A stretch of 64,000 nucleotides of DNA from Morchella semilibera (lineage: Eukaryota; Ascomycota; Pezizomycetes; Pezizales; Morchellaceae): the NCBI GenBank assembly GCA_009192285.1, contig WBVU01000010.1, positions 310,001-374,000 on the forward strand. The letters are read 5' to 3'. Positions 316 to 59,000 of this stretch are shown here, piece after piece (position 1 is the first letter of the stretch; each line of letters begins with the position of its first letter). The position numbers and the translations under genes were made by a program. The notes under the pieces are model-generated. The model searched no databases. It saw nothing but the letters and a program-made list of their open reading frames with translations, and was not told the DNA's origin.

Positions 316-1146
316 ATTCAATTGGTACATACATGTAACGTATGTATGCATTGTGTGGCAGGAGTTATGGTAAACAGAGACAGAGGGGATGCCAGGAATG
401 TGGTCAGTAAAGCAATGCAAGTTAGCAAAACGTGCGGCGTTAATAGGGCGCTAAGCATCATGGGGTGTCACTCGGTCGTGATGTTCGGTCCGGCCGCGGG
501 ATGTGTTGAGTCACACTTAATATTCATAATTGATAAGTCGGTATGCACGAACTTTCAACGGCTTCGATGCTGCCAGATGGCTTTTCTTGATGGATGTGCG
601 GGCCTATTGGATGCACTTCTCCCCAACCTGTGGTCACCTATGGTGAGTGAAGCCGTTGTAGCCGAGTTGCGTGCGTATGTATGGTTGACTGGTGGTGATG
701 AGACGGGGTTTTCTTTAATGAGGCACCTATGACGTATCCTAATGATGGGGTCTAGGGCTTTGGCGGTCCCCATTGTTCCAGAGTGTGGATTTTTAATACA
801 CACTCAGTCGTTATCTAACTTATTGGCAAAAGACCTCAAGGTCGTATCGCGCTTAACGGTTGTCGTTCTAATATACGTGTTTAATACTTGCTATATAGAA
901 CCATGTAGTGTTTGTGTCGTAGTAAATACTTATGGGGCGGGCACGTATATACATTGGTTTGTTTTAAACCCAAGTCCCGGCGGTCATGCGGAATACGGGA
1001 AGTTGTTAGCCTTGTACCTGGGCTATATCAACCGCGGGGGTGCAGTAAGTCTCTTATTTAATAATAACACTTTTTATAAAAGTATTCGTGCCCATTCTCA
1101 GTCAATTTTTGGCTTTACGAGCTCAGGACTCGAGATAGAAGCATGA
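316..1146 (+). other. Long open frame interrupted by one TGA; possible pseudogene remnant
   Basis: Reading frame 1 is open from just after the TAG at 313 to the stop ending at 1146, except for one TGA at 730-732. That is about 276 codons with one stop. There is no good ATG near the start (the first start-like codon is a TTG at 322), no intron-like boundary around the TGA, and no recognisable domain. The translation is rich in hydrophobic residues and Cys. Chance openness is possible, and so is a decayed transposon or host gene. The function is unknown. Confidence 0.25.
458..475 (+). promoter_or_regulatory. Bipartite motif site 1 (TCATG-N4-GTCACTCGG)
   Basis: Half-sites TCATG and GTCACTCGG, spacer GGGT. 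It lies inside the broken open frame 316-1146. The regulatory class is a guess. Confidence 0.5.
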
Positions 1147-2496
1147 TATCTTTATAGAGTTGAGGGATATAGCCGTGCTTTAATCTCGATTATGAGATAT
1201 AATCCGGTGCTTGAAATGGTCCTAATGTGGCCTGTCTCGTAGTGCAACGGTGCCACCGCTTAGTCTATGCTTGACTTTGGAGGCTCTTGCACTTTGTATA
1301 GATCCGCGGGATTCCGCCACCTTCACCTCTAGTAAATCCCGAACTATAAGGCTGACTGCGGAAGTCCCAAGGCAGGTAGCCCTTCGACGCGGGGTGAGCT
1401 CCGTTGTAGAAATAATACGTAGCCACTAAGTAGCCCCGATTGTTTATGGGGGACTCCCCATGATAGCTGTTTTAATATCCTGACTGCAAGCTCAACAGCT
1501 GTTGGATCATTATTGTAGGACGGGTAGCGTAGCTAAATTTATTCTAGACCTAGCCTACACAGAGTAGCCTTTTAATGTCCGGGGGTAGCTAGGTACTGGG
1601 TGGGCGGCCTTCACATGATGATATAGTTATGGAGCCCCTTCTTGATTGCGATAGTGCCTAACGACTTTATATTCCTCTGCTTCCCTCATAGCTTTTGGAT
1701 TGGGCCTAATACAGGTTTCTGGGCCAGACACATAATCTGTCCAGAATCCTGATACTGAACGAATGCCGCAATAAGCACACCATCTCGGAGGGACTCAATA
1801 CAGAACCGGTTTAATGAGCCAGCGATTCTTCTACGGTTCTCTTCGTCTCGATCACGCCATTAGGCCGCTCTAGAGAGCTCTATATTCCACTCTATTTCCG
1901 AAAAAAAAACCATTGGGATCGGGGGGAGGGCTTATAATTAGCTTAGCCTAAGGGCTGTAGTTCTCCGGTTCCGTGGGCTTTCTAGTGTACCGAAAATGGG
2001 TGTAGCTCCTAGCTATTGGTGGCTGTGCTACGGGCCGAGCACTCGGAATGCTGTACTACTACGTATACACGTTAGCACACTCCCAATATACCTGTGGATA
2101 TCTACGTACATAACGGCTGAAATGTACCACTAAGTAACCATCATGGCTACGAGAACACTTTCCACAGGCCAGCAAGCGAGGACCCACAACCGGTACCTCC
2201 TTGGACGCCTCATCGACCAGTGTGGGTGTGCGCCAATATAGGTCTTGGCTCACGGGGTATCACTCGTATACCGTGCCGGATAGGACTAAGAGCTTTTTAT
2301 CGGTACCTTGAGCTTCCCAAGAGAACAGCAACGAGAGGGCTATGGAAAGCGGCTGACCTATAGCCCAAATAGGGTCCTGAAAGCAAGAAGATAGCTTGCG
2401 CACGGGAGCTTGGTACGGACTGCCCGCGGGAAAAGAACTAGAGGAGCCTATGCTGTGTTTAACACTCGAAACATTCGTGAAGACCCTAGCCCTGGC

Positions 2497-2945: not shown

Positions 2946-3926
2946 TATAGTAGTGGATTATCTACGTACTAGGACTTTCTTTAGGTAACACCTCGGAGCG
3001 TATGCCGGGCCCCTCCCCGTTTTATTTCTTTTGAAATAGCTTGCAATTGTATTGCTGAGGATTGAGTAGAAGGCAGGGTTTAGTCCGGATCAGATCATCT
3101 TATATCTCCCAAACATAGGGATGAGATTAAAAGGGGCAAAGGGTTACCACTATCATGCATTTAGAGGCTATGGATTAGTGGTTGTATGGGATGGGATGGG
3201 TATAAAATGGCCGTGCCCTATAGCCCTAGCCGCGCGTGGGCGCTTGGGTTTGACCTCCTCACCTTGGTTGACTACATGTAAGTAACTCTTTCTCCTACTT
3301 TTTTTTCTTAAATCCAATTAAGTGTACATTTTGGACGGGGCCAGCTCATGGGTACATGTACAGTATACCCTAGGTCAGCTCAGCGATTTCGAACAAATAT
3401 TCTAAGTATAACGTACATGTATGCAGGATACATACATGTAGCTAGATGGACTAAACAAACCAATCGATCAATAGATCAAGGTGTAGATCAGTTGAGTGAT
3501 TCAACAATAACAATTAACAAAAACAAGATGCAAAGTGGTAGCCAATAGCCTAAGGGCTGCATGCAGTATGAAGTATAAATAGATAAATAAATGAGTGGCA
3601 GCTAAAATCGTCGATCGAGTGATAACTCATGCACCGCCACCATCACCCCCATATACTCATGTCGGGTCTCCTTACCCATTTCAAAACACACGTCAAATCT
3701 CCCCTACATTCGAGCCTACACACTCCATACCCCCAAACACTAAGCTAGCCCCTCCACCCACCCAAGTCCTTGGAGTCAGGCTGCTCGATCCTTTAAGATT
3801 AATTAGCCCCGCCTTATAAGAGCTCACCATCGCATCTAAACTACCACTATGATGCCGGTCGTACCTACACCATCCGTGTTTAAAACCTCCCTTACGCCAA
3901 ACATATCATACCCCCAAATATAAGAT

Positions 3927-4444: not shown

Positions 4445-4462
4445 TCACCACTCATCACTCGG
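4445..4462 (+). promoter_or_regulatory. Bipartite motif site 2 (TCACC-N4-ATCACTCGG)
   Basis: The first half-site is degenerate (TCACC). The terminal GG overlaps the start of a 21-bp perfect palindrome at 4461-4481 (arms GGTCGGGTTT and AAACCCGACC around one G). Confidence 0.5.
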
Positions 4463-12372: not shown

Positions 12373-12947
12373 AAAGGCCAGGTAGTTGTTTTAGCGGTAT
12401 ATGCTCTCTTTTCTAGTTTAATCCATGGTTTATTTTACTCTTTTCGGCGGTCTCTTATAGGCTGGCCACTTTTGTGTATCAATACTTAGGCAAGGTTGTG
12501 TGGGTTCCGGAAACTCATTGCTGGCGCGATGGAGGGGAGCCACCAAGGACCTTCGCTGCCTTAACTTAACGTAAGATATGGGATGTTTTGTGCCTATTAA
12601 TAAAAGTAAATGATTTGGCGCTCCATGATTCGATCATTGGCCTTTCGAAGCGACTCGCTAGCGTCATATATGATCACTCGGTGCATAGGGGCAGACTACA
12701 AGACTGATAAGGTTAGTTATTAATCAAGTAGTGTACCTCCTCGGTTAAGGAATTCTTCTCTATAATCAGTTAAACCCTTTACATTAGGCGTAACTTTTAC
12801 TGCGATCCTCATCTAGTTTCTTGGTTATGCACATGCGTAATAGCCACGAATCCTCGTGTAACATGGCATATTGAGAGGTGATGAGGGCCATCGTAACTTT
12901 GGGCGCGTAGAAAAACCTCTTCTCCTTACTAACTGATACTTGCAACA
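12373..12947. other. Intergenic, zinc-knuckle 3' end to MSH5 start
   Basis: It holds the 3' flank of the zinc-knuckle gene (AATAAAAGTAAA near 12599 could serve polyadenylation), one perfect bipartite motif, and the MSH5 promoter. Confidence 0.4.
12664..12681 (+). promoter_or_regulatory. Bipartite motif site 3 (TCATA-N4-ATCACTCGG)
   Basis: It lies 267 bp upstream of the MSH5 start, spacer TATG. Confidence 0.5.
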
Positions 12948-15900
12948 ATGCCCCGAACTCGTCGAGCGTCTGTGGCATTCGCCTCTGAACCCCTCTTCCG
13001 CCCACCTTCTCGCTCTTCCTCTCAGACAACTCGAAGCTCCCTCACCGCCACTCCTGGTACCTCAAAATCACGTAAACTGAACCCATATAACAGGACTGTC
13101 GAAAGTCAAGATGAAGATGAAGATGAGGAAATCTCTGAGGAGGAGGAAGACGACTCTGAGGATATCATCATGGCCGTTGATCGGAGGGGAAGAAAGATAG
13201 GGTGTGCATTTTACTCGATGGCAGAGCAGAGATTAAGTTTAATGGAGGATATCGAGTTTCCTACTTCGGACTGCTTAGATGCTTGTGAGTGCTCTTGCGC
13301 GGGGTTGGATTGGCCTACTAATGTAGTTGCGTGGGGGGTAGTAAAATTCCATATAAAACCTACAGTCCTGTTACTGCCGTCAAGGTTTGATGAAACCATT
13401 GATAAATCGCTTAATCCTGATTCTAAAGGCAAATGATCCAATCTGCTTCTGTAGGTATGTTTGTGACTCTTGCTCACACGTTTACCAGATGAATTTGCGA
13501 CGCCTTATCACATTTCCATCCGCCCTACTGCCGAGTTCTCCTATGACTCGGCAAGAAACAAACTCATCTCAACCCGTATTGGTGAATCCAACGGACCATC
13601 AATCACAATCCAGACTCCTGGCGACATGCATGACATATCCGGCGAGTCACGGAGACGTGGAAATCTACTGAGACTTGCAGGGTGGATCAACGTGGAAAGC
13701 AAGGTTACTGTAGGGTGTGCTGGTGCCGTATTGACGTATCTGCAGAGGAAGGCAAGTATTGACGGAGGTCCTGGAGATGTCGATGGAGGGGGAATATTAG
13801 TGGCAGAGATTGAGATGTGGAGTATGGCTGATGTTATGTATGTGCTAAGAGGGTGTGTGTTTGTCTGGTGAGAAAAAGTGACTGACGGGGAGCAGGTTTG
13901 TAAATGCAGATACGATATGCTCGCTGCAGATCTTTGAGGATGAGTCGCACCCGAATTTTCATATGCAAGGCCCCAAGGGCCGCGGTAAAGAAGGTCTATC
14001 TTTATTCGGAATTATGAATGGGACTAGATCTCCGCTTGGGCATGTTATGCTTAAACAATGGTTTCTGCGCCCAACCCTTTCGCTCTCAATACTGACCTCC
14101 CGTCATGATACACTGACCGCGTTCCTCAATCCTGCCAACTCTCATGTCCTCGCTACACTCGGGAAGTCACTGCGATATATCAAAAATATCCCAAAAGTCC
14201 TTTCAGGATTACGGCGAGGCTTAGGTAGTGGTGGCCGAGGGGGCGAATGGGTTTCGTTAGCAAAATTCTCGTTCTACGCACTGAGGATCAGGTCCTCTCT
14301 GCAAGAGATGAGTGGAGTTCGAGGGCTAGTGATCTATAAGAAACTGATGGACACAATTGATGTCAAGGCCATTCAGGCCGTGGGACAGCTTATCCACGAC
14401 ACAATAGACTTTGATGAGAGTGCACTGCAGCACAGGGTAGTCGTTATGAGGAACGTAGATGATGAGCTAGACCGGATGAAGCAGATGTATAATGGCATGG
14501 ATAGTATGCTCTCGCAGGTCGCTCGACAAGTCGCAGCAGACATACCGGCCGGTGTGGCGATCAACTTGAACGTTATTTATTTCCCGCAGCTCGGGTATCT
14601 GATCGTTGTACCCACACTCGAAGGTAGTAGCAATGATGGTGGAGAGGAGGATGCAGTGGGGAGGCCTGTGTATGCGGGCCAAGACTGGGAATTTCAGTTC
14701 TGTACAGGAACGAGTTGGTATTACAAGAACCCGCAGATGAGAGAGATGGACGGGTACTTTGGGGATATGTACGGGCTTATCTGTGGTAAGTTTGTGTGGA
14801 TGGATGGAACGAGTGATTACTAATGACGCAGTGAAGATAGGGAGATTGAGCTAGTGCATGAGCTGCAGGTAAGGGTGCTGAAGTATGATGAGATACTTAT
14901 AGACTGTGCTATGATAATCGCGGAGCTTGATTGGTATGGTCTTGGGATCCTTTTTTCTTCTCTTCTTTTCACGATATCACAATTGGACTATAGCTAAGGG
15001 TTGTTAGTCTTCTGGCCCTGGCCCTGGCGGCGGAGAAATACAAGTACTCCCGGCCTATAATCACCGAGGAAAACATCATCAAGATTACTAAGGGCCGGTA
15101 AGCGAGTTCTTGTCTTCCTAGAAGACGCAGAAACTATCATTGACAATAACAGGCACCCGCTCCAAGAACTCTGCGTGTCCTCCTATGTGGAGAACGATAC
15201 AAATATCCTTGGAGGTAAAGGTTCAGATGAAAAATTAAGTAGCATAGATATCGAAACTGCCCCAGACGCAAATGAGGCTAATCTGGCTACACCACCGATG
15301 GCGGTAAGAGGTGTTGAGAACGCCCCCACTGAGCCAAGTATGGTGCTTATCACTGGGCCTAATTACTCCGGGAAAAGCATTTACTTAAAACAAGTCGCAC
15401 TCATAGTTTATATGGCTCACATTGGATCGTTTGTTCCAGCCGAGAGTGCAGTGATAGGATTGACAGATAAAATACTTACCAGGATTCAAACCCGAGAGAG
15501 TGTTTCAAAAGTACAAAGTGCGTTTATGATAGACCTTCAACAGATCGCTATCAGCCTTAGGCTTGCCACACGTCAGTCTCTTCTAATAATCGACGAGTTC
15601 GGTAAGGGTACCGACTCAAGTGATGGTGCAGGGCTAGCCTGTGGTGTATTCGAACACCTCCTGAACCGCTGTGACGATAGGCCAAAGGTTTTGGCAGCTA
15701 CTCATTACCATGAGATATTTGAAAACGGCTTCCTTACTGAGCACAAATATCTACAATTTGCTCACATGAAAGTTCTCCTTGATCATGATGCAGAGCAAAC
15801 AGAAGATCAAATCACGTATCTATACCGAATGGAGATCGGCCGGAGTACTAGTAGCTTTGGGACTTGCTGTGCGGCCCTTAATGGTATCGATCCAGCAATT

Positions 15901-17912: not shown

Positions 17913-18946
17913 TTACTTATTCTTCCTTTCCTGATCCTTTCTCTTTTTCTTCTATTAGAAATAAGGAGTCCGGTCTAACTGGCTGAATTTGTGATCTTTT
18001 TCTTTTATTCCTTGTTTGAACCCCCCCCTTTTTTTTGCGCTGCTTTTTGCAGATTGATGATATGATGAATGTGTTTTTATGAGAACATGGAAACTGGAGT
18101 TTTGCTTTTTATCTTTTTCCTCTTTTTTCTTTGCACGCAGTGATGGGGCGGATAAAGTTTTTATATAGGATATCGCTACCATACTTAATACATACATTGT
18201 ATTAAGGATTTTTGGGCGGTGTTTGTCTTTGCGTGTACCTAACTACATGTAAGTAGGTGGCGGCAAGCCTCCCAAACCCTAGCCTGACATTATGTGTGGA
18301 ATATCCCGCCGGCTTTTAGACAGTACAAACCCACTTATATAGGAAAATTAGAAAGAGTTGAGATCTGACTACTTAGTACCGTATGATGGCACCTTGAAGA
18401 TCATACCCTTTAATACCGTCATGGTTCTCTTCAAATGTTAAAAGTTATTGTTAACTCTCATATTCGGCGGGGGTTCTAGACTTCCTGCGAGGATTGTTAT
18501 AGCATGATGACAGAAAGTCGGTCCCTTCGGCCTATTTTCTTCATGATGGGCGTTGTTCACATCATGGGCTATCACTCGGAATAACGTGTTTGGTGAATGA
18601 CAAACTACTCGGGGTACCCTACTCTACCTTTTATAGGCGTTTCTCAATGCTTGTGTATGTCCACCTTTTTTTTACTTTCTCATCTTGTGTTTGTGTCAAA
18701 CCTATTGCTCGAGAGGTGTGCATGGAAGTTTTGGCACTGTCGGTCTAGGTATGGGTTGTAGAGTTTGATATAAAGTCAATAGATGTTTGCCAAAATAAGA
18801 TATATAATCTGCCAACATAGAAAATAACCCAGAAATACAAATAGCTACACCAATACGAAACAAAACAACTTGCCCCCAACCAAAAACCAACAAAATAAAC
18901 AAAATGCTCTTCACCGGAGACAACCAAGAAAATGACAGATCATCAG
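17913..18946. other. Convergent intergenic region (F-box / dynamin 3' ends)
   Basis: T-rich 3' flank of the F-box gene, one TACATGTA (18244-18251) and one perfect bipartite motif (18562-18579). No coding frame of interest. Confidence 0.45.
18562..18579 (+). promoter_or_regulatory. Bipartite motif site 4 (TCATG-N4-ATCACTCGG)
   Basis: Perfect consensus with spacer GGCT. It is located between two convergent 3' ends, so it is not an obvious promoter element. Confidence 0.55.
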
Positions 18947-21498: not shown

Positions 21499-22866
21499 TG
21501 CAAGAGGGAATGTTAGGGATTTATATGTGAGAAGCCTAGAGCATTGAAAGCAGAGGTTGTGGGGATTATATGAGGAAGGGTTCTAATCATCTTTTTAAGG
21601 CCTCACTCAGATAGTGTTTCTTAGGCCTCCAATTACCGTAGATGCTCGAGGAATTCGCTAGCGCCGTTTGCACCAAAAAGTACTCAAAGTGCCGTTTTTG
21701 GTACTCTATGTATGATATGCGGGTAGGTGATGTTTCACTCGCATTAGACCAACCATCAATCCTGGATTACGGTGGCCTTACAAAAGGGCAAATACGTTTT
21801 TGGGGGTGCAGCACAGCGCAACACAACGGACCACCACCGCAACTATAAAGTACATGTATGTAACTTATACTTTGAGCGCCTTATTGACACTGACTTAACT
21901 ACACATGTTGAGTAATAATCAAGTAGTTTTTGTATCATCTGAATATGCCCTAATTATCTGTAGTGAAAATCTTTTCTTAGAATGCAATATAGACCTCTTG
22001 ATGTAACGCTTCGAATAAAGATACTACCACTATGACACTATGAGGGAGCCCATATACAAGAATTTCCTTAATTCTCTTGTGGTTATGGAGTATATTTACA
22101 TGAACGCCTGTCCACACTGGGGCTACTATCATATGCGATCATGACTCTTACTCGACAGCTTTTACCATCACTCATCACAATCACTCTTATTTACTATTAG
22201 CTAGGTTTGATTGTTTTGATTGTTTCAGTTGTAATTATAGGCTGCCGTAAGGGATCGTTTTGCTAGGCGGCAGACAGCATTTCTCAAAGTTGATGGTTGG
22301 CCTGAAATCTCTATCCCTATTTCATGCACCGCACTCCTAGATTGGATAACAGAATACGGTGGCCTAGCGCGCGTATGTTTGCTTGAAAAATTTCTCTCAT
22401 GCGCGGCAAGGCTCGGATCGGCACTGGTTGATGCGTCCCCAACCTCTTTTTTTTTTTAAGCGCTGGTGATTTGGCAGTAGGCCATAATGCAGCTTACGAG
22501 GAGAAGGGGGGGGGCAGTTGTTACATTGCCTGGTATCTTACCTCTCTGAGTGATGTCTTTTATTTTTAGTAGACTGGCTGCCTAAACTCCTGTATTTGCA
22601 CAAACTGTTGGTACTCGGCTTTCCAGTAGTTTATTACGCCCCGGGGTTCTCTGGAGCGAGATTACATGTAGATTAGTTATCAAAAATACCGCGCAGACCG
22701 TGCGGAGTAGGTACATGTAGGCGAGTGATCTCATATGAATAACCGAACGACTGACGACGTAAATCCTCTTGGCACCAACTGGGGGTACTAGTCCACGTTA
22801 ACCAATAGTATTACTACGCCCCCCTCCACATACAATCCCATTCATTCACTAAAGTGCCCTCCCGTG
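21499..22866. other. Divergent intergenic region (dynamin / HAD hydrolase)
   Basis: About 1.37 kb without a credible gene. It contains three TACATGTA copies (21851, 22663, 22712) and a one-mismatch minus-strand copy of the bipartite motif (22721-22738), 129 bp upstream of the HAD start. Confidence 0.45.
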
Positions 22867-23770: not shown

Positions 23771-24243
23771 CTTCGTGAAGACCAAGGTTTGCTTGCGAGG
23801 TGAAATCCTCTAACTTGCTGCCAAACCCCCCGGAGTCCATGTTTCGTAGCTATGGCCCGGTAATCAATAAAATAGATTTTGCTTCAATAACATTCTATAT
23901 AAGCTCATTAGTCCAGTATCGGCAAAAGAAAAAAAAAAGTCTAGTATCAGATTTTTCTATATTCACCAATTTCTTGCATTATTAGTATCAACCCAATTGA
24001 GAAACCCACTAATATTAATACCCCTGCTACTAACCTAAGCCGTATGTTGATAATGGCGGCCCGTACTCATCCCCTCCGGTGTACTTAGCATATAGAGTAG
24101 TGTGTAGGCTCAACGTTGTTTAATATCTAAGCGCGCTATTAGACTTCAATATGACATATTCCTAGTGCTTAAGGCCTACATGTAGTTAACCCTCTGACAG
24201 CCATTCTTCAAAAATGTCAGTTGACTGCATGTACCCAGAGTGT

Positions 24244-24999: not shown

Positions 25000-25017
25000 T
25001 CACAGTATATCACTCGG
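25000..25017 (+). promoter_or_regulatory. Bipartite motif site 5 (TCACA-N4-ATCACTCGG)
   Basis: It lies 158 bp beyond the aldo/keto reductase stop, next to the tandem ACTCTCAGGCT duplication. First half-site degenerate, spacer GTAT. Confidence 0.5.
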
Positions 25018-26418: not shown

Positions 26419-26949
26419 TTTGAACTGGTGTTGATAAAGGGTAGTAGGGTACTGATGTGATAGTAGTATAGTAATTTAATGTGAGTTTGTTTGATATTCC
26501 GTCTCACTGCGCTCCCTTCGCCTCCCTTTATACTTTTAAGTTTTCTGATCTCTAGTTTCTATTTAACTTTCGGAGTCTTCTTTTCTCTTCTCTAGAGATA
26601 AATCCGGCCATTAAATCCGAGCTTCTAACTCCATACCTACCGGTGGAATTCTCATACGAGTATTAGCCCACAAGAATGTTTACCTCATCCACCCCCTTGT
26701 CGATTGGACAAGTCCAGTTTAGCCCACACGGAATTCCGTATTAGCAGCATCACTATCAATCACTCGCTCCACGGATAAGATTATGTAGTTGGATCTGCCG
26801 AAGGATAAGGTTAGAGGAGAGGTGAGACAACGGAGCACGGATGATAGCTGAGCCGACGGAGGGTAGTTTGTCCACCCTGAGCCTGTAGGCGGCTCGGCAT
26901 GCCATGGGTATGCTTTCGGATAAGATTGGCCGACAGTCACGTGAGATTG

Positions 26950-26967
26950 TCATGAGTTATCACTCGG
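26950..26967 (+). promoter_or_regulatory. Bipartite motif site 6 (TCATG-N4-ATCACTCGG)
   Basis: Perfect consensus, spacer AGTT. It is 532 bp upstream of the aldo/keto reductase start, with a looser copy 200 bp closer (26750-26767). Confidence 0.55.
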
Positions 26968-35999: not shown

Positions 36000-38900
36000 A
36001 AGGTACCTCATGACAAGTCTCAAACGTCATATGGCTCCGTGCAAATCTCACGATCCTCGTTGCGCGTGTGCTGACTCGGAGTTGCATCTATGTTCGTTGT
36101 GTTCCTGCTCTAGCTGGAGCATTGTTGGCGAGAAAATTTCTTCCAGGCGCCAAGGCCTAACTATGGCCCAGCATCCACTCTTCTCACTTTTTTTTTCACG
36201 ATGCTCAGAAGGTGCTTTCGATCAGAGGTTGATTTGTTTGCTTTTTTTTCAAATAAAAAAAAAAAGGCGGTCACGCATACCGGTTGCTAAGGCAATTTTC
36301 TTGTTGTGCCAGTGAAGTAGCAGTACTTGCATGTATGTACCTTAGCGGCCGAGGGGAGGAAAGGCCAGTGAACTTCCTAACTTTAAGACAGTAAAGGGTT
36401 GACGCTTATATGACGCCAACCTGGTCTTGGAGCGTTGTGAATTTGCTTTTTGCATTGCAGTTTCGCCTTCCCAGGTTTGGTTCAGATTCTGAGGCAGAAA
36501 AGGGGGGGGTATGTATGCTCCCCCAGATTTCATATAACCTTTTTCCCTTAAGCCGCAGAAGCGCACGGTGCCTTGGTTATGGGAGAAGGGAGTTTGAGAT
36601 TTGCAGTGTCAAGTGATCTGCCCGAGCAAGACGAGCGCATCATGTAACCAGGGGTGTGGTTGAGCGTTGTGTCGTCGGCCTTGGGCACCGAGCTTCCTCA
36701 AGCTGTCCATATTGCCGAAACCCACGATTGAGGTGAGGAGGGGGCTATTCTCGGCACTCTCGGCCAACCGTTCCAAGCAACTCGCACAGACGCCACTTTC
36801 CACCAGCGTTCTTCGCGTTGGGCTGCCGCTAGAGGGCAAAGAGCAGCATGTGCGGTCTTGGGAAGCCACGAGGGCTGTTTCTCAGGCTTCATCTACAGGC
36901 TACAGCCGTTCACAGGGTTTTACTCATAGTTGAGGCGCTGCTACTTTACAGAGAGATTCGCCAGAACCAGTGAACGGCTATACTCTACTTGAAGATGTTT
37001 GCGGGGGAGGAAGAGAAAAAAAAAAGCCAGGGATTCAGACTGCAAAATTGTAGGCTATGCTCTAGTACACGTGTGTCCGCCGTGAATTAGAATTGGAATG
37101 GCGAGATCTTGGGGATGTACCTGCAGCTTGGGGCCAACGCCCAGCGGCGAGGCGGCGAGCTTGCTTCCACCGTAGACCGAACCCACATCATGTACCTACT
37201 GTATGTACTCAACCCAGATGGTGGACTGAGCTTAGGCTGGGACAGTTTTTGTGGGGATCATTTGAACCTATTGTTAGAAAGAAGAAGTTAGATGCCCTGT
37301 TTAGAACGCATGGAAAAAAATTTTCCTCATCGCTTATGTGTTTCTTTTTTCCCAATTTTGTTTTTCCCTCTGATTCTGTCTGCCTCGAGCATCCTTCCTT
37401 CCATTCGACTCAGGCTGTGGGTACATGTATGTATGTAGGGTTAATCTCTCGTACATACGTTTGATGACGTCTCAGAGGGAGATCAGATCGAGTTTGGACG
37501 ACAACAAGAAGAAACGTTAACGTTGTGATCCTCTGATCAATTCCCCCTCCAGCCTCGATTTAGTTTTTTTTTTTCAACAGGTAACGCCACACCTGGACAT
37601 GCCCGGGCGGAATAACGTATTCTTGTGCAAGAAAGAAATAATTCTTTGACAGCACCCACACACCAGGGGCAAACAAGCAAGCATGCCACTCTAGAGTAGT
37701 TCAGTATGTCTACGGCAAGCATGCCATAACCCAAAACTCCATTTCCCCTACATACATACATAGAATAGAGTACCTACATACCCTCCTACCTAGAGTAAAT
37801 TCCCTTGTAACCAACAAAGGTCAGATGGTCCAACCCGTGCTCCACAATTACCTAACAGCCATACCCCCAAACGGAAAGGCGCCAGTCTCCCATGCCCCCA
37901 TCTGGTTGGTCGCGCAGTTTCGCTCTCGTAATGAAAGCGCCTGGAACAGGAATGGAGAGCCACTGCTACCTGTAGCACTCGCCTCGCTGCTAAAAAAAAT
38001 TTCACTCGTCATCATTTCTCACGATATTTTTTTTTTCCCACTCAACCTTTCGCAGGGCAGAAAGAAGCAATATAACCGCGAGGCCCTGTGCTCATCCCCT
38101 ATCCGCAGCCCTAACCGAACCAGCGACAGAAGGTGCTGCGGTAGCATGTATGTAGTGGATGCAAATCGTTGTCCAGGATGGAGCTTTTTTTTCCCTCCTA
38201 TGCCGTGAGCTCTGGGTTGTTTGAACATTGACCTGCAGTTGCAGTAGTAGTAGTAGTAGGAGCAGTAGGACTCATAGTCAATCATAGTTGCTCACTCAGT
38301 TTTCCAGTCAATGAAAAGTTTGTGTGTGTGGTGGCCATCAATGGGCATGAACAAAGCTGACCCATTCACTCACTCGTTCACTCTGTCCTATTGTTCTCTG
38401 CATCCGGTTGATAAACTGTGATTTGATTTATTGACCAAAACCAGGAGGTGGCCGTGCCATGGATTTTATTGATTGATGGGATATGATGGTATTATGGTGT
38501 GTGTGTGCGTATGTACTGGATCACACATAGAGTACCGACATGTAGGTATTCTACTGGGTATGGCAAGGAATGGTACAATAACAAATTTAATGGTGAAATT
38601 AGGTCATGATGGTCCAAGTGCGGTAACAATCCCCTCGTGATGGTTGTGGTGGTGGTGGTGGTGGTGGACTGGCTAATATTCAATCAACTACCAAGATGGT
38701 GGTGCATGCGTTACAACTTACGAGGAGTCAGTGATCAGTTACACTACGAGTCTACTGGGGCGTTAGCCAAGGGTTGCATGGGTTGGGAGTGCATGGATGC
38801 ATGGCAATGACCGCCAACGCCCCAAAATTTATTATTTTTGCCTTAACAAGTCCCACGATCTTCAGGGCACTGATTTATTTTCCTGAAATATAAAGGCTCT

Positions 38901-44922: not shown

Positions 44923-47234
44923 TTAGGGTTCCCGAGTGACCGGTTTCTGGTCCGTGTGGCATATGCGAGTGGATTGTTGAATTTTCTGGCACTTGAGAGG
45001 AGTCTGGGGGAGTTTGGATTTGTTGGGTATTTAGAAAGGGGGGGAAAAAAACCGTGAATGAATCCCGAAGTTACATGGTTGGTTAGACTGACATTGAGTG
45101 ATACTACACGATGTGAACGGTGAAAAAAACTAATAAATATTACCCTAACAGTAGCAGAATTGATTGTTTACTCAACGGGCATGATAATCCAACAACATAA
45201 TAGTCTAGCACGAGGCACAAATCAAGCGCAGGCACAGGTACAAGGATCCGTGGGGGAAGCTTTATCAGATACCCTCCGATAAATCTAGATCGGATCATGC
45301 AAGCCATGACATCTCAAGTGTGTTAATCCGCCCATCTCCCGTCGGCCTACATATTTTGTATCAAATACTTTTTGACAAACTTCGGGTGCCTCCGAAAAAA
45401 GGAAAGAATGGGCAGCGTGGGGGGGATACGTCACACTTTATAAACCTTCTCGATCCCATCCCAAAGTTCGATTTCTGCTTAAAAAACAAGCATCTTCACT
45501 GACAAAGCCAATCATCTAGCCCCGCAATGATTAACAACAGGGGCTAGCTGGTGGGTTAATTATAAGCTTATTTCCACGTATGCAGGGGGCACAGCCGCTA
45601 CGAAGGAAACAATACGCAGCTCCTGCAGGAAAATTGTGCAGCCAAAGAAATTTTTCGATATCTTGATATCAGCATGGTATCGGCGATCATTGATCCTGTT
45701 GCATTGAGTGATAGTTGGTGACTCGTGAGTGGAAACAAGTATTCGGTTGTGGCCCGCTCGGGCTTAGTGATGCGTGCAGGGGTGCAAATACCTGCCAAGA
45801 TATTTCGAGGAAAGCCCAATCGGAGATGAGTTCAAGACTCTGCGCCTCGATTTTGGTCTCAACTGCGCATGTCATGGCTGAGTTTTAAGCTCAAGAAACT
45901 AGTGGTGGATCCCCTGAGGCTCGAGCTCAGAGACGTCAGATTTCACAGACCGACTCAGTGGTCGCTCGTAGAATATTGCGTTGTCTCAATTGAACACAGA
46001 AAGTTCGAGAACTACACAGCCTACCTGTTGAATTAAGGTTGTAAGAGTCAGCCGTAAGAGTCACCTACAGGTCGATTGGTAGTTACGGGCATCTTGCTCT
46101 ATGTTGTCCTGTGACCGGCAAAAATTGGAATTGCAGTCTCACTTGGACATAGGTCACAGAAAAGGCTATGCCTGCGAGCGAGGTTTTGAAACATGAGGAA
46201 AAATTAGAGGCGCAGCATCTACATTAAAGTGCCACGAGAGCCGAGTGAGGTCATCTCCTAACCCCTATTGCCTGTCTCCACCTCCTGGGTTAAGGGTTCA
46301 TAAAGAACATCATCTACCTGCAGCAAATCAAGGGCAACATCTATCTACAGTTACCTAAGGCGTCTTTCAATATTAATGATCTATTGGAAATAGATTCAAA
46401 TAAAAGATTATTGGTTGAGTAAAACCTATGCCTGGGTGGTAAAATAACATGGAAAAATTCTTTCTAGGTTTGGGGCCTGGTTTGCCGGGTTTAGGTTCAA
46501 TTGCAATTACATTGTTAGAAAGAGACTAAAATCGATATATGTACTAAGTAAAGAGTGTCCAGAAAATCATGCCGTATAACTGTAACCGGATTTTTGTTAA
46601 TATTTGGTGCCATCCAATTTATCTATAGTGAGATCGAATAATGATAGTGCAGGTCTATAAAACATTCTATCATGTCACATGAGGGTTAAAATATTATTTG
46701 CATAATTTATCACTCGGTCGACGGTATTGCAAAGTAGAGAATTTATTAATCGTATGCAAGTAGAGAGTTGGGTATCCCATATTTGTCGATCTTGGTTTTT
46801 TTTCGTGGGGCGGAACCCATTGGTAGATTAGTTTAAAAACAGTACCGAGACTCACTGCCTCTTAGGCCCATGACTAAACTTGGTGTGTACTCGCTGGTTA
46901 AGACCTTTTACAAACATTCAGGGGATATTTCGGGGCGTGGCAAATCCGTGAAAACAGTGGAAGGGATAAGAAAAATAGGAACCTTGTCCAAAATTCCTGG
47001 TCTTCAAATTACGGAAAGAGAACCTACATAGGCCATCCTTGGGTCTCAAGTTCTGATGGGGTGGGCCGCTGGGAACCCAATACGAGGGGATCTTCTTGGT
47101 CTGTGCATATCTCAGTATAACTTCATGTTTAGCGCTTGCTAGTAGCTGTGACCGTCAGAAGAATGCACTAGTGGGTCAACTAGCGCCTATAATCAAGCTA
47201 GTATACAGGGTTGCCTTTTCAGCAACCTCAACAA
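44923..47234. other. Intergenic, no gene seen
   Basis: About 2.3 kb between dihydroorotase and the tRNA. It carries one bipartite motif (46700-46717). Frames are short and without resemblance. Confidence 0.45.
46700..46717 (+). promoter_or_regulatory. Bipartite motif site 7 (GCATA-N4-ATCACTCGG)
   Basis: The only perfect-core copy whose first base is G instead of T; spacer ATTT. It lies 518 bp upstream of the plus-strand tRNA-Gly. Confidence 0.5.
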
Positions 47235-47316: not shown

Positions 47317-50300
47317 TCCTTGCAGCTGCCCATTATTCTCTACTTCGTTGAACGAGTTTATGGTCAGCAATCACTTTTAGCTTTCATTCAAGCTGTGTCC
47401 GTTTGTTTCCGCAGATGATCCTTTTAGGAATCCAGAAGGTCCTGAGAGCTCAACAAGAAATCAATATTCAATTACATGTGAGTGTGTTTTGACTGTAAAG
47501 TAGCTAGCAACAGTATATAGAGAATAGTTCAAACTAAATTAGGAATTCCCTACCCTTTCCAGGGGGGCCTGGGAGGCAGAAGTCAAAAAGGGAATTTTCG
47601 ATAGGGTCACACTATGCAGATACATACCAAACAACATTAAAGTGTACCAAAAACCAACGTTTACAGTCTCAACACAGCAGAAGATTTAGTTAGTACCTAA
47701 TTCCAAATTTCCAGAGCCGCTGTCTTAGACATTTGATAAAGAGTTATGAAAACAGGCCAGCCAGCCATACAAAGAACACGTTCCGGTTCACAACTAATAT
47801 AAAAGCCCGAAACCAAAACCACAACGAATTAGTCCACAGGCTATAGACTGCAGGCAGACCTTAGATATATACCTACCTATATACCGCTTCGAACTAAGTG
47901 AGGTCATGTTTTTTCCTCGTTACTCCCCTTTGCCGAACCGCTAATTATATAGGTACATCCAGAGAAATAATATATAAGGCATAACCCAACATATGGGCGG
48001 AGAGACATGTACAAACCCATGACGAATCGACGACACAAAATCAGTTAGCCGTACGACCTTGCTACAGAGCTGTTAACGCATAGTGGTAGTCATGGAGCAA
48101 AGACATAAAATGGCTCCTCTGTTGATCCGATTGTGAGGGCTGGCTCTTGCAGTGAATTTACAACAAGGGACATGACCGATATATCTATGTAATGATTACT
48201 AGGGGAGAATCAAACAAACAAAGGCTACTTGATGTCATTCAATTGGCCGTAGCTGACTATGTATTTACATGTGTACGAGCAAGAGAAATCGGTTAGTATT
48301 GGATGGCTGCATGCACCACCGTACAGTCACCTAAAAATTCCATTTCGTCTATCCCACGTAGGTTAATCAGGTATTTGACACAGACATAACCAACACCCAG
48401 AACCTGGTCCTTTACAGAACCCAACCCCCCAACCACTGTCACGTCATTTAGATTGAGGTGAAGTTTGTATATAAGAATTTATACCAAAGAAAGCCCATGG
48501 CAGACACCACCTATAGATCAAAAGTGGTGGATCTATATCAATTCTGGTTATGAGTATAAGAAGGCTAGTTAAAACCTGATTTGCTGTTCGATTGTAATCA
48601 GGATCGGCCCTTGCCCAAGATCTTGGATACATGTACTCTCAGCCGTGATACGTATGTTACACTGTGCTGCCTCTATGTGGATTACTGAACAAACACCCGC
48701 CTCGCTATATATTACCCACATTATATTCCGATCTAACCAATCCCATGGGTACTAGATCTGCGCCGCGTTACCGATTACGCATTCCCTGTAGACCACTTAG
48801 ATTTATCGATTGATTATTTATCTATATCACGCATATATACATGTATGCATGCGCGTATAAAGACTCACAGCTCCCCAATAACAAGAAAATTTGGGGCACC
48901 CCGGAAAATGGGTTATAATGTTAGTTAAAATCCATTGGCTACATAAGCGTGGGCCCTCCAGCGCATCCACTGCGAATAGTGAGAGACACAAGGCATGATC
49001 GCTCTGTGCGAGTTCGTCAATCTTATTCGCCCATGTATCTACAAATGGTACGGGATGGCTTTATATGTAGGATGGGGGGGGGGGGTTCAGTCTCGTTCTT
49101 TCCGTCTCTTCCTGATCGATAGTCGCCAGGTGCTATCCCATAAGCTCTGGATATAGGTTGATCATGGTAGAACCATCATAATCCAGCAAGCAATCATTTG
49201 ATCACCGTAGTTAATTAGCAACTAATATCTCTCATCGGCGGGGATACATATGTAATGGTTGGTACAGGGGGTTCAATGGATCCTGGATATACCTATGGTA
49301 AGTCGAGCATTAAGCGGGCCTTGTGAAAAGCCTGAATAGGTGCGCATGCAGATTCAGTAGATTATGGGTGATCCTTATAAACCGCTCGCTTAATAACAAA
49401 TACAATATGGTCAATTGGAAATGACGACTTCATTTTCCAGCTGGTTTGCGTTAATTGCACCAAGTATCGAGTGATAATCAATGATCCTTATTCTGGAAGT
49501 TGCACCTCCGGAGCCTTCTCAACCTACATGTAAATCACCGGTAAAACAGTAAAGGTTAATGAGTTGATGGGGCCTATTTGTTTTAGGTACTAGGTAGGAG
49601 CTTATGAAATGCCTGGTGAGGTAGTATGGTCTAAAACCTGCGTGAAACCAGAGATAAAGGCCTTGAAGTATAAATAAAGTGTATAAACTAGAAAGGTAGG
49701 GTGGGTCGCTTAAGTATTCCATATCGATGTTTGGCCAATCAACTAGAGCTGTGCTTGTACTTACTCGAGGCACCCCGAGTACATCCATGTATATGCATGA
49801 CCTATTCATGGCAACTCATCAGCAAGTGAACAAAAGATATTAGCGATTGAACTACAGCTGCAAATTGTAGTTTGTAAGATGGGAGAGGCTGCCTTTAAGC
49901 AAAATCGGGGCTTGAAACAACGAGCCGAGGTTAAACCTGGATTATGTACGAGTATACGCAGAGCCAGGCTGTGTAGGTACTCATAAGTTCATGACGTTTC
50001 CGAACCCCCGACCACTATTACATGCCATACAAAAAAGGTAGCCTTGGCGGGTTTTTTTCTGTGTATGCAATAGCAGCTGGGTCCGAAAAGGCTATGAAAT
50101 TGCGAGTATGTACCTACATGGAGCCGCCCGGGGAATATATGATCGGGGCGCGGGGTGATCCGGGATAGATACTTAATCTGCCTAGATCTAGATGTGTCCC
50201 TGAATGAGGTTCCCCATCCACCGAAGCATGGAAAGTGGGGATTAAGACACCCATGGCCATCTTTTATGCCATATGAGCAAGTTTCCCGTGCCATGCATGC

Positions 50301-53613: not shown

Positions 53614-54250
53614 GCAAAGGGGGCTTTCAAAGAATTTTCTATGTCTGTTATGAGAATGATTGTTATTTATCCAAAGAAATAAATTGAACATGATGTTAAT
53701 GACCTAGTTGTGCATCTTCATATAAAATTCATGTCACATTGATCTTAGTTTGTTGGCTGGCTGTGTTCCTTTGGAGGAAAAGAGGGGGCGGGTGTATCAT
53801 GTGATATCACTCGGTATGCGAAAAAACGGCGGGGGAGATGCATTTTTTTTTGTTTACATCATTAATTGTATCCAGCCCGGAGGCTATGACAATCGGGGGA
53901 GATGCATTCACATTATGTTGACCCTCTCCTCCCCTCCAGTTCGACATTGAGAAACCAATACCGAGAAAGTAATATGATTTATCATTTCTGTTGAGTAGTT
54001 GGTGATTTGGGTTCTTAGTCAACCGTATAATCGCCTGATGAGGTATAATCCGTATGTTTGCTATTCCAACCCACAAAAAATCGAGTTGTGGAGGTGTCGG
54101 CTGCATACTACGGGTTGAGTTTTTTTTTCCCAGCACTGAAGAAAAAAGTGAAAAGAAAGAAAAGGGAATTACAGTAAATCTATTTACAAAGCACCGGTAC
54201 AACCCAAAGGAAACTTTTTTTCCATCTAATTATAACTAGCCAAGGGGTAT
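53614..54250. other. Convergent intergenic region (carboxylesterase / Utp11)
   Basis: 3' flanks of two convergent genes, an AAATAAA-like word near 53678, and one perfect bipartite motif. No gene. Confidence 0.45.
53797..53814 (+). promoter_or_regulatory. Bipartite motif site 8 (TCATG-N4-ATCACTCGG)
   Basis: Perfect consensus with spacer TGAT, between two convergent 3' ends. Confidence 0.55.
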
Positions 54251-55184: not shown

Positions 55185-55202
55185 TCATACATGATCACTC
55201 GG
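55185..55202 (+). promoter_or_regulatory. Bipartite motif site 9 (TCATA-N4-ATCACTCGG)
   Basis: It is 155 bp upstream of the Utp11 start, spacer CATG. Confidence 0.5.
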
Positions 55203-55576: not shown

Positions 55577-56035
55577 TTAAAGCTTTGATAAAATTTAAGG
55601 GATGTATTGTAGTGGTATCACGCTAGTGATAATGATCCTAGTCCTTGCATTAGTGCGGAATAGCGCTGAATACATGTACTAAACGCACATCACCAGGCAC
55701 AAAAAAGGTGGCTACATGTAGATCTGATAATAAAGCTTCATGTGCATGTAAGTTTGAACTCCCAAACGTCAAAACCGTCCTTATAAAATTCAACCTAAAG
55801 AAGATTATCCTTGTAAGTACTTTTTAGCGTTCACCAAACCAGTCATCAAGTAGTAAGACGTCGATCAGAACCTCTAAAGGCAAATAACACTCTACGGGAG
55901 CCATTGTCCCCAGATACCTATTCCTACGCCCATAAAAATAACAACCCAAACACCCATGCATTCATCATACCTCATAGACCCTATTAAACGTATACAAAGA
56001 CGGTATAGAAAAATTCATACAAATAAGAAAGAAAT
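55577..56035. other. Intergenic, tRNA to MRC1 3' end
   Basis: It contains two TACATGTA copies 42 bp apart (55671 and 55713). No gene seen. Confidence 0.4.
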
Positions 56036-59000
56036 TCAACTAAAGCTACCTTTCGCCAAAACACCCAATACACTCTGCCTCTTCAATCCCTCCTTCTTCC
56101 TCTCAATCTTTTTCTTTGCCTCTCTCTCGTGTACAACTTTACTCCTGAGCTGCTCTCTAGTGTGGAAGTTGATTGAAGAGCTTGCCTTGCCACCCATCTT
56201 CACACCGGCACCCTCGCTCTGTTGACCGAGGGACCTTTCAGTCCCCGCAGAAGACTCTGAAAGACTACTTGAGGTTGTACGCCGAAGAAGAGTTGGTACT
56301 TTGAAGGCGGAGGAACTGCTAGAGGCTTGAAATGCAAGCTTGGTGGTATTGCTTGTGGCGCTACTGGAGCGCATGACAGCGACACGGTCGATGACGGTGC
56401 AGATACGTTCCCGTCGGAGAGCAGCAGTTGTGTCTTCCTCTTCATCGTTATCCGAGAAGTCAATTTGGGAGTCATTTTCCTCGACGAGGAAGGATAATTG
56501 CTACGAGGGAAGTCAGTCATGATCTGTCACTCGGCCATAAACAAAGGAGGGGTAAATCACCTCTCGGATTTGGGCCAGTGATGAGACCTTAGTTTTGGCG
56601 GGCCTTCTGCTTTGTGGTATTGAAAATTGTGCGACCCCCTCACTAGCCTCTCTGCTGGGATCCTTACTCCCTTCACCAAGCTGTTCATCCCCTCCCATCG
56701 GGGCCGGACTCGCCTCCTCACTTCCCCCAACTGTCTGATTTTGTGAGACACAGTCCGTCTGCGATACCATGCCCAGCTCGATAAACAAATCCTCCTCCCC
56801 TCTATCCAAGAAGTCCATCTCTTCATCCCTATCACGATCCTCAATTGCCGCTAAGAACGCCGCTCTCTTAGGGTTAGCAGCGATCCTTTCGATCTTATCA
56901 TCCTTGAGAAGCTCTTTCCTCATCTTCGCCATCTGCCTTCGCTTTGCGGCCCTACGCCGTGCCTCTGCGTCATCTTCGTCTTCAGAGTCATCGAGGTCGA
57001 AATTGGCACCGCGCTTCTTACGTAGGAACCCGGATTGCATGTCTTTGAGCAACTTGGTAACGTCCTTGGCGTCTTGTGCCATTTCACGCTCGGCGTAGAA
57101 GGCGGCCATGGCATTCTCATCAACAGTCTCAGCGTTGGTGTCGTCAACCATGTCTTCCATCTCGCTGTCATGGCCGTCGTCGGCTTCGTCGTCGGAGGCG
57201 CCACCAATGCCGGCGTATTCATCCTCCGACTCTTCTGCTTGCTCTTGGACCATCCCTTTGGCCTCACTCTTGGATTTATCAAAGTCAGTTGGTTGCTTTA
57301 GTTTCTTCGTCTTCTCGCTCTGCTTCTTTGACGACTTCTTCATCAACTCAAAGACATTGGCAATATCCACCAGCTCTTCCTCCTCCTCTTCGGCAGAGTC
57401 CAACACTCGTTCCTCGTCTTCCTCTACTTCTTCGTCAGAGAAACCCATCCTCCCCCTTACCAGCCGCCCCCTCTTCTTTCTCTGTACACCTAATTGTTCA
57501 TCTAATACCTGTGTCGGGAGGGTACCAGGTACTTCTGGCTCCGGTGTAAACCTCGGGGGTGCCGGAGTGTTCGTAACCGCAAAGCCCTGATCTTGTGTCG
57601 GGTCTGGCATATCCTCTTCGTCCGGCTCATATTGCAGCAATACCTTTGGTAGTGGCTGTGAGTCTGGCTCTACAGGCCACTTCTGACTTTGTGAGTAGTC
57701 CAGCCTGAGCCTTGCACTCTCATCTTGACTCTGGCTCTGGCTTTGTGTTCCGCCGCCAAAGTTGAGCACCTGAGTGTTAGGCATCACCTCATCCACATCG
57801 CGCCGGAGAATATCGATACGTTCTTCGGGGTTGATGGCCTGGGAAGTAGCAACCTGCACGCCCTCAGGGTTCCCCATAGTACTTTCGAAAAGCTGGGTCA
57901 TCCCAATCCCCATCATCATCGGTGGCTGGGCGTTAGGTTTGCGGAAGATGGAGGGAATCTTTGATTCAGCTGGTTTAGGAGCCGGGGCGGGAGCGGAAGT
58001 CTCCTCGTCTTCATCGTCGGAGACAACTCGCATCTTCTTGCGTTGCTGTTTCTTCTTTTTCTTGAGGGGTGCGAACTCACCATTATCGCTGTCGTCGGAG
58101 GCTTCATCGTCAATATAGGCCGACGGCATTTCAGAGAGGCGTGGTGTTGTATTTTCGGGAGGACGCATAGAGGATAAACTAAAAACGGGGGTCCTATTCG
58201 GGTCCTCGAGTTCCTCATCCTCTTTCTCCTCGTCCGAGAAATCGTTGGCATCGGGTTTCTCGCCCTCTTCTGCATCTGCGTCCTCCATCTCCTCTTCACC
58301 ACCAACATCCTCATCAGACCCTGACAAGTACTCAAAGATTGGGTCTTCTTCAGGACCACCCGCCCAATCCTCATCTTGCTCGTCATCATCATCATCGTTC
58401 TCTAGCCCTTTCTCTAGTTTCTCCTGCCTCTTCTCGGCCCTCTTGATCTTGAGTGCCTCCAGCCTAGCTTTCTCTAGGAGATCTTCCACCTCAGCCTTCT
58501 CCTTCTCCCTCTCCTCCGCGGTAGGAACAACAATTCCCTTCGCTCTTAGTTCCTGAATATGTTCCTCTCGCTCCTGCACTGCTTGCTGCCGCCCCTTCTT
58601 TACCAGCTCCATCTGCAGCTCTTTAGCACTCAACTGCCCTGCCTTCTTAACCCGCGGTGGCGATGACCGCCGCACTTTCCGCAGCTCCTGAATCATCTTC
58701 TGGCGCTCAGTGAACGCGGCAAAAGACCGGCCTTGCGCCGTGGAAACTACTCGGTCTGGTAGGATCTCAAGGTCTGAATCAGAGTCATCGGCGGCAGTAG
58801 TAGGGCGGGATGGGAGGATTACACGGACGGGCGGAAGGGAAAGTCGTTTTTTAGTGTCAGGGGGAGGCGCTTTGCCTTTTCCCTTGTCAAGGCGAGGTGG
58901 ACTAAAGACTATTTCTTTACCCTTACCTTTGTCGAGGAGGGACGGGCTGGAGGCTATTCCTTTACCCTTACCTTTATTAAGAACGATTGGAGGGCCGTTG

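Follow-up and report, generated by a model that had tools for sequence, protein, structure and literature searches.

Copies of an 18-bp motif in the window

The window, i.e. the whole 64-kb stretch of DNA that was analysed, contains dispersed copies of an asymmetric, two-part 18-bp motif with a consensus of about RTCAY-N5-RTCACTCG(G). Its core RTCACTCGG occurs 11 times, compared with 0.56 occurrences expected from dinucleotide shuffling, and none of 100 shuffles reached 11. The first-pass annotation had listed ten cores, all on the plus strand, and all ten were recovered at their positions, each with the half-site at constant distance that had been described for it (10/10; the copy at 46700 reads GCAT and not TCAT). 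The 11th core, GTCACTCGG on the minus strand, was absent from that list, is not among the half-site matches and is probably a chance match. The looser copies reported earlier were also present, at 2250, 26750, 22721, 31358, 14809 (previously given as 14808), 3615 and 49467. With a threshold of 16 bits, a matrix scan of the window returned 19 sites, 13 on the plus and six on the minus strand. The single-strandedness noted before therefore applies to exact copies that end in CGG and have a half-site, but not to the matrix sites as a whole. The features are:

458..475, plus strand: motif copy TCATGGGGTGTCACTCGG, exact, 24.6 bits; tandem (-/-) intergenic
2250..2267, plus strand: motif copy TCACGGGGTATCACTCGT, 24.5 bits; tandem intergenic
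3615..3632, minus strand: motif copy GCATGAGTTATCACTCGA, 20.5 bits; tandem intergenic
4445..4462, plus strand: motif copy TCACCACTCATCACTCGG, exact, 20.4 bits; tandem intergenic
12664..12681, plus strand: motif copy TCATATATGATCACTCGG, exact, 22.8 bits; inside a gene model that is probably over-merged (predicted intron or gap)
14809..14826, minus strand: motif copy TCATTAGTAATCACTCGT, 20.6 bits; predicted intron, same gene model as the 12664 copy
18562..18579, plus strand: motif copy TCATGGGCTATCACTCGG, exact, 26.6 bits; convergent intergenic
22721..22738, minus strand: motif copy TCATATGAGATCACTCGC, 21.7 bits; divergent intergenic
25000..25017, plus strand: motif copy TCACAGTATATCACTCGG, exact, 24.7 bits; convergent intergenic
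26750..26767, plus strand: motif copy TCACTATCAATCACTCGC, 17.1 bits; divergent intergenic, next copy (26950) 200 bp on
26950..26967, plus strand: motif copy TCATGAGTTATCACTCGG, exact, 26.8 bits; divergent intergenic
31358..31375, minus strand: motif copy TCATAGCAGATCACTCGT, 22.0 bits; divergent intergenic
38282..38299, plus strand: weak motif copy TCATAGTTGCTCACTCAG, 17.1 bits; tandem intergenic
44932..44940, minus strand: isolated core GTCACTCGG without TCA half-site, core match only
45704..45721, minus strand: weak motif copy TCACCAACTATCACTCAA, 16.6 bits; tandem intergenic
46700..46717, plus strand: motif copy GCATAATTTATCACTCGG, 1 mismatch, 20.8 bits; tandem intergenic
49467..49484, minus strand: motif copy TCATTGATTATCACTCGA, 22.1 bits; tandem intergenic
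53797..53814, plus strand: motif copy TCATGTGATATCACTCGG, exact, 25.6 bits; convergent intergenic
55185..55202, plus strand: motif copy TCATACATGATCACTCGG, exact, 21.8 bits; tandem intergenic
56517..56534, plus strand: motif copy TCATGATCTGTCACTCGG, exact, 22.0 bits; predicted 60-bp intron of an MRC1-domain gene

The absence of copies from exons, also claimed earlier, agrees with the rough gene models of the window. Sites 12664 and 14809 lie in predicted introns of one long model, and site 56517 lies in a predicted intron of a gene with a Pfam MRC1 match, where an open frame also spans the site (stop at 56513-56515).

Genome-wide abundance and form of the motif

In the 56.8-Mb assembly the pattern TCA-N6-RTCACTCGG was found 2,513 times compared with four times for the reversed control. 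The core form TCAY-N5-RTCACTC gave 8,496 matches compared with 110 for the control, and these approximately 8,500 matches include a few that are doubled through duplicated contigs. Within a 264-kb stretch of contig C9, 72 sites scored 16 bits or more, where Markov simulations (n=8) gave an average of 0.75, and 78 scored 13 bits or more, i.e. about one site per 3.4 kb. The matrix shows two RTCAY half-sites whose starts are 10 bp, or one helical turn, apart. The gap is fixed: 51 of 67 RTCACTCG cores had TCA exactly 9 bp before the R, and each of the 24 other TCA offsets tested was seen with at most three of the 67. The long bipartite site with fixed gap proposed from the window is supported and far exceeds shuffled and reversed controls genome-wide.

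Copies were mostly intact or absent and there were almost no decayed ones. Sites with 0, 1, 2 and 3 mismatches at 12 core positions numbered 50, 26, 66 and 422, with 0, 2.8, 56.8 and 460 expected, and 20 of the 26 one-mismatch sites deviated at three tolerant positions. The composition of the flanks showed no clear A/T asymmetry and no extra conserved position from about 10 to 160 bp from the motif. With its fixed gap, numbers far above matched controls, unrelated contexts and position outside coding DNA, the motif has the general properties of a cis-regulatory site.

Location relative to genes

Location statistics were obtained for the 264-kb stretch with a home-made gene finder, which predicted 58 genes (coding fraction 31%); these models are rough, with some genes missed or merged. 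Predicted exons held one of the 72 sites, compared with 22 expected. Sites were found in intergenic DNA of all gene arrangements, with 28 of 66 bracketed intergenic sites in convergent regions compared with 16.7 expected (p=0.002; p=0.009 after collapsing clusters). Site density was 0.93 per kb in convergent, 0.36 in tandem and 0.30 in divergent regions (p=0.0003, gaps >8 kb left out). Introns also carry sites, and one intron of 211 bp holds three. The motif was enriched 250-1000 bp beyond predicted stop codons, and 31 of the 58 predicted genes had a site within 1 kb downstream, compared with 17 within 1 kb upstream. The nearest gene end was a 3' end for 46 of 68 motif sites but for 37 of 84 sites of a second dispersed motif, TACATGTA (Fisher p=0.005), which in the same DNA and with the same gene models leans the opposite way, towards promoters. 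The two motifs were not co-located (median distance 1156 bp, null 1184 +/- 247). Sites in tandem intergenic regions were not nearer to the 3' end of the upstream gene (mean relative position 0.49, 22 sites), and their position did not differ from that of TACATGTA (0.52, 33 sites, p=0.83). This mid-position counts against a pure terminator model, which predicts nearness to the 3' end. At the loci examined on contig C1, two of 51 sites lay inside a predicted exon of a weak 201-bp model.

The role beyond ordinary promoter control that had been suggested for the motif is supported in part. Sites in the 264 kb favour convergent and 3' regions over promoters, but the gene models are home-made and the 3' lean at the C1 loci was weak, with 19 sites near 3' ends and 14 near 5' ends. 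A serious though doubtful alternative is that the motif is the ordinary site of a very widely used promoter transcription factor or general regulatory factor (Abf1/Reb1-like), with the convergent and 3' skew produced by low counts or by errors in the gene models. Such factors typically have homotypic clusters, intergenic sites and one site per few kb, and 0.3-0.6 sites per kb were indeed present 250-1000 bp before predicted start codons. The Abf1 consensus also begins with RTCAY, but its second half, ACG, is missing from the matrix, and density peaks in convergent regions and past stops while TACATGTA behaves as a promoter motif.

Orientation and spacing of sites

One-strandedness was not a property of the element. 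The exact pattern occurs 1297 times in forward and 1216 times in reverse orientation genome-wide, so that the one-strandedness in the window is local. Strand runs, which had been proposed as a check, gave no significant result: the 78 C9 sites formed 35 runs (39.7 expected, p=0.17), and 43 were counted among the first 100 C1 sites of the listing (48.6 expected, p=0.14). Of the C9 sites nearest to a 5' end, 16 had the opposite and two the same orientation as the gene; a rule of outward orientation at 5' ends was dropped, as the C1 loci gave five opposite and six same.

Adjacent pairs within intergenic regions had the same orientation in 20 of 33 cases on C9 (permutation p=0.13) and in 14 of 23 at the C1 loci, and 12 of 15 were concordant when convergent regions were taken alone. 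Close pairs were direct in 296 cases, tail-to-tail in 77 and head-to-head in 42. At gaps of 100-160 bp there were 77 direct and 25 tail-to-tail pairs genome-wide, and the imbalance within these direct pairs (60 forward, 17 reverse) may be an artefact. The core-pair period, determined for 97 direct pairs from 100 listed of the 296, was 11-17 bp in only eight and 18-19 bp in 21, as an 18-bp footprint would give. After de-duplication, 13 of 68 direct pairs had a period of 163-167 bp, but nucleosome-like spacing is not claimed, because repeats contribute to this number (three copies of one sequence; tandem chains in contigs C3 and C22).

Instead of transcription or insulation the site could serve replication, pairing, cohesion or recombination, e.g. 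as an origin, a cohesin or condensin anchor or a meiotic site. We consider this unlikely, as about one site per 3.4 kb is denser than expected of origins. The frequent direct tandem copies and the sites in every gene arrangement would fit such a function, as would the lean towards convergent regions, which are described as loop boundaries in S. pombe (PMC10246852).

An action in RNA, as a processing or termination signal of 3'-UTRs or non-coding RNAs with one strand read, would fit the enrichment past stop codons and the excess of direct over inverted close pairs. It is very improbable, however, given the mixed orientation near 3' ends (19 same and 14 opposite on C9, 10 to 8 at the C1 loci), the antisense orientation of two of the three C9 sites in predicted introns, and a motif whose length, fixed gap and 10-bp repeat look like DNA recognition.

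Flanking sequences

We compared the 60-bp flanks of 123 non-redundant sites from the C9 stretch and the C1 loci. Mean identity was 25-26% over 7,503 pairs and no pair reached 50% on both sides, which confirmed the earlier statement that the flanks share nothing. These unrelated flanks and the whole-genome controls also bear out the previous view that the motif is no transposon fragment. Although copies number thousands and a repeated sequence with two cores lies at three places (C1:1863377, C2:2753718, C3:2139472), a part of a transposable element or an insertion target spread through the genome is scarcely credible, being contradicted by the flank comparison and by the mismatch distribution with its near lack of decayed copies, and 10 kb with five sites matched elsewhere only via a separate element of about 220 bp (38 of 169 candidates scored).

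Possible function

The explanation we prefer, with a probability of roughly 0.55, is that one abundant DNA-binding protein, or a small family of such proteins, recognises the motif sequence-specifically, decorates intergenic DNA genome-wide and marks the ends of transcription units. This explanation is based on the observed motif, its fixed gap and number, the mostly intact-or-absent copies, the unrelated flanks, the near-absence from exons and the convergent and 3' skew. A protein would bind the motif, and selection on this binding would keep the sites intact. The 10-bp distance between the half-site starts would allow a protein with two linked DNA-binding modules to contact both RTCAY elements from one face of the helix, with the TCG(G) tail possibly extending the second contact. 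At the ends of transcription units that it marks, the bound protein might form a chromatin boundary and/or a roadblock halting RNA polymerase that reads through into the next gene. It would then act much like the general regulatory factors of budding yeast, but mainly at 3' and convergent regions rather than at promoters. Speaking against this reading are the mid-position of sites in tandem regions, the sites in introns and in the weak exon model at the C1 loci, the lack of a stable orientation to genes, and the weak 3' lean at the C1 loci.

More tentatively, and with rather low confidence, the motif might be the address of a fungal boundary factor, i.e. a CTCF-like architectural protein that separates transcription units, above all between convergent genes. 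Thousands of intergenic sites would then be bound, and read-through polymerase and/or cohesin would be blocked there.

Open-access literature searches with the strings TCACTCGG and CCGAGTGA, with TCACTCG in fungal binding-motif literature and CGAGTGA in that on Neurospora, and on motifs of Pezizomycetes and Aspergillus in general, gave no description of the motif among the matches listed. In the matching text of a paper on Aspergillus promoters, CGAGTGA appears once, inside a primer (PMC4046813). About 8,500 core matches, spaced a few kb apart over the C9 stretch, would imply a binder that touches a large share of transcription units. Even if this were an ordinary abundant factor, the motif would offer a convenient entry point to gene regulation in a group that has received little study.

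Comparison with known systems

The Abf1 consensus RTCAYNNNNNACG consists of a first half RTCAY and a second half ACG. The motif described here is likewise a long fixed-gap site with a first half RTCAY and a second half starting 10 bp later, but this second half is RTCACTCG (RTC at matrix positions 10-12), so that the RTCAY half is the only part to fit. For Abf1-type sites a location mainly in promoters would also be expected, unlike the downstream and convergent preference seen with the rough gene models of the 264 kb. Compared with Abf1, Reb1 and Rap1 of Saccharomyces, the sites number thousands and lean towards convergent and 3' regions in the stretch tested. Abf1 has been described as organising chromatin and as a roadblock to Pol II, and it resides longer at multi-motif sites (PMC7586999). 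A search for the BAF1_ABF1 domain (PF04684) gave no match in the genome and none in any of the 14 control genomes.

The CENP-B box, NTTCGNNNNANNCGGGN, is also an asymmetric bipartite site, and both it and our motif, at 17-18 bp, would be suited to two HTH modules. The matrix, however, lacks TTCG and the A/CGGG spacing of the box, and the 123 non-redundant sites that were compared are dispersed in DNA of unrelated sequence and not in satellites. The genome encodes CENP-B-type HTH proteins, a kind of binder suggested earlier (44 PF03221 matches above cut-off), but none of these 44 was tied to the motif.

The motif resembles the site of animal CTCF in being long, asymmetric, intergenic and present in thousands of copies, and acting as a boundary would be a functional parallel. 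Fungi are described as lacking CTCF, and their boundary elements limiting chromatin loops as not fully characterised (PMC10246852). In fission yeast convergent genes delimit chromatin loops, and the preference of the motif for convergent intergenic regions is similar, whereas the portion of PMC10246852 drawn on here names no sequence motif for these boundaries. A defined sequence with a preference for convergent genes would make the question of loop boundaries in fungi directly testable.

Occurrence of the motif in the window and the genome

A pattern scan of the window recovered all ten RTCACTCGG cores listed in the first-pass annotation, each with the half-site at the place it had described (10/10). 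An eleventh core, on the minus strand at 44932-44940, lacks a correctly spaced TCA half-site. These 11 matches compared with a mean of 0.56 after dinucleotide shuffling, and none of 100 shuffles reached 11. We seeded a position matrix with exact sites and refined it over 30 loci on contig C1, fetched by exact pattern, and the continuous 264 kb to which the detailed work was devoted (C9:210001-474000, the window and 200 kb around it). In the window it scored 19 sites at 16 bits or more, of which 13 lie on the plus strand and 6 on the minus strand.

The scanned assembly (56.76 Mb, 23 contigs), in which the window is C9:310001-374000, contained the exact form TCA-N6-RTCACTCGG 1297 times in forward and 1216 times in reverse orientation, compared with 2 and 2 for the reversed pattern used as control. 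The earlier claim that all copies lie on one strand thus stands for the exact CGG-ended copies with a half-site, as a local property of the window, but not beyond those. RTCACTCGG alone occurred 3,584 times (control 448) and TCAY-N5-RTCACTC 8,496 times (control 110). These genome-wide counts are somewhat inflated because a few contigs resemble duplicated haplotypes: C9/C10, C12/C13 and C21/C22 carry the same matches at near-identical coordinates, the pattern that partial phasing of two haplotypes, or of a heterokaryon, would leave.

Anatomy and clustering

The matrix (129 instances, position 1 being the T of TCA) reads R(0, weak) T C A Y(4) R(5) R N N T(9) R(10) T C A C T C(16) G(17) G(18, weak), where the last Gs are over-weighted because the 30 C1 loci were fetched by exact pattern. 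It consists of two RTCAY half-sites with starts 10 bp apart, the second lengthened by TCG(G). The gap between them is fixed: TCA was found exactly 9 bp before the R in 51 of 67 RTCACTCG cores, and in at most 3 at any other of the 24 offsets tested. Over the 12 core positions, 50, 26, 66 and 422 sites had 0, 1, 2 and 3 mismatches, compared with 0, 2.8, 56.8 and 460 expected (average of six fourth-order Markov simulations), and sites are therefore mostly intact or absent.

The flanks share nothing, as had been proposed from the window: those of 123 non-redundant sites were unrelated, the 7,503 pairs averaging 26% identity on the left and 25% on the right, with maxima of 50% and 48%. Across 129 sites no further column from about 10 to 160 bp from the motif exceeded 0.11 bit. 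Flanks of 24 out of 130 sites matched elsewhere in the examined DNA; many of these were overlapping loci of one place, the rest were short or beside the motif.

Core pairs at gaps of 4-34 bp were direct in 296 cases (control 20), tail-to-tail in 77 (control 1) and head-to-head in 42 (control 3), the last class being restricted by overlap. Random orientation would give twice as many direct pairs as pairs of each inverted class, and direct pairs are therefore in excess. Tandem duplication can add to this excess; C1:25795 has three 18-bp copies with similar spacers. Among direct-pair periods (97 of 100 listed), 11-17 bp were rare (8) and both 18-19 bp (21) and 26-28 bp (23) were common, as expected for putative occupancy of the site over its full 18 bp. 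Particular arrangements were observed at the following places:

C1:1433102-1442199, plus strand: eight exact copies in 9 kb (no other cluster among the 100 listed places is as dense)
C1:1863377, C2:2753718 and C3:2139472: one repeated sequence carrying a pair of motif cores at a distance of 166 bp
C3:2969779-2971593 and C22:1642485-1642985: motif cores in chains with a spacing of roughly 144-168 bp, perhaps a satellite or sites phased with nucleosomes; copies in the C3 chain begin with differing intervening sequence

Location relative to genes

Genes in the 264 kb were predicted with a simple hidden-Markov model that includes splice signals, written for this analysis; it gave 58 genes, a coding fraction of 31% and a median intron length of about 62 bp. 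Of 18 window ORFs tested, 10 had Pfam matches (MutS III and V, dynamin, aldo-keto reductase, aldehyde dehydrogenase, amidohydrolase, Utp11, MRC1, protein kinase, DUF3602) and the other 8 had none. Of the 72 sites scoring 16 bits or more, only one lay in an exon (22 expected), three lay in introns and two beyond the outermost genes. The 66 bracketed intergenic sites were divided into 28 convergent, 27 tandem and 11 divergent. This convergent excess (16.7 expected) gave p=0.002, and p=0.009 after collapsing clusters within 500 bp, where single p-values near 0.01 are to be weighed against the several locations and orientations tried. Without the two intergenic gaps larger than 8 kb, convergent regions held 22 sites (0.93 per kb), divergent regions 11 (0.30 per kb) and tandem regions 25 (0.36 per kb), with p=0.0003. 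Among regions longer than 150 bp, 13/15 convergent, 7/15 divergent and 14/27 tandem ones held a site. A site was present within 1 kb downstream of 31/58 genes and within 1 kb upstream of 17/58.

A word survey of non-coding sequence in the 264 kb returned one 8-letter word stronger than the studied motif, the palindrome TACATGTA, with 86 copies in C9:210001-474000 (in the window e.g. at 330, 3273, 16362, 18244 and 21851). Its extended form TANNTACATGTANNTA occurred 3,317 times genome-wide (control 251). TACATGTA leans to promoters, peaking 500-750 bp upstream of start codons, with densities of 0.48 (divergent), 0.59 (tandem) and 0.29 (convergent) per kb. Under the same gene models the nearest gene end was 3' for 46/68 sites of the studied motif and 37/84 of TACATGTA (Fisher p=0.005), or 40/59 and 21/54 with clusters collapsed (p=0.003). 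A general artefact of the models therefore does not account for the convergent lean.

The 3' lean has limits. Mean relative position in tandem intergenic regions was 0.49, compared with 0.52 for TACATGTA, with no shift of the studied motif towards the upstream gene. The lean was repeated weakly in the C1 loci, which were selected for having sites: of their 51 sites, 19 were nearest a 3' end, 14 a 5' end, 13 had no adjoining predicted gene and 5 lay inside predicted genes (three in one 211-bp intron, two in the exon of a weak 201-bp model). The three copies in this predicted intron (locus C1:322718-325735) are all sense. Orientation relative to genes was not reproducible between the 264 kb and the C1 loci.

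At about 24228-24448 the window also carries a repeat of ~220 bp whose ends are inverted over about 33 bp; it has 38 long matches (75-86% identity) across the genome and looks like a miniature inverted-repeat transposon. Inside it the matrix scan found no studied-motif copy reaching 13 bits.

Possible function

We consider the motif to be a protein-binding site of some kind, with a probability of about 0.9. In the simplest account, two DNA-binding modules linked in one protein would read both RTCAY half-sites from one DNA face. The sharp split into intact and absent sites suggests that they are maintained by selection on binding, and near-absence from exons together with the excess at gene ends suggests that the bound protein would be kept out of transcription units and be useful between them. 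A factor that is abundant, intergenic and leans away from promoters is somewhat favoured. Exon scarcity and gene-end excess led us to judge a boundary or roadblock-type role the most likely one, and we propose it tentatively as the main function.

Comparison with known systems

According to PMC10246852, fungi lack CTCF and their boundary elements are not fully characterised. A Penicillium Hi-C study (PMC9241887) examined globule boundaries for known JASPAR motifs. The part of a centromere review (PMC7463522) consulted on the CENP-B box does not give its consensus. Text searches of the open-access literature yielded no description of the studied motif among the matches listed. CENP-B-type HTH domains are present in the genome (44 PF03221 matches), without a link to the motif. 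The consensus of Abf1 has RTCAY as its first half and 10 bp from the start of the first half to the start of the second. The studied motif has both features in common with Abf1, whereas its second half differs.
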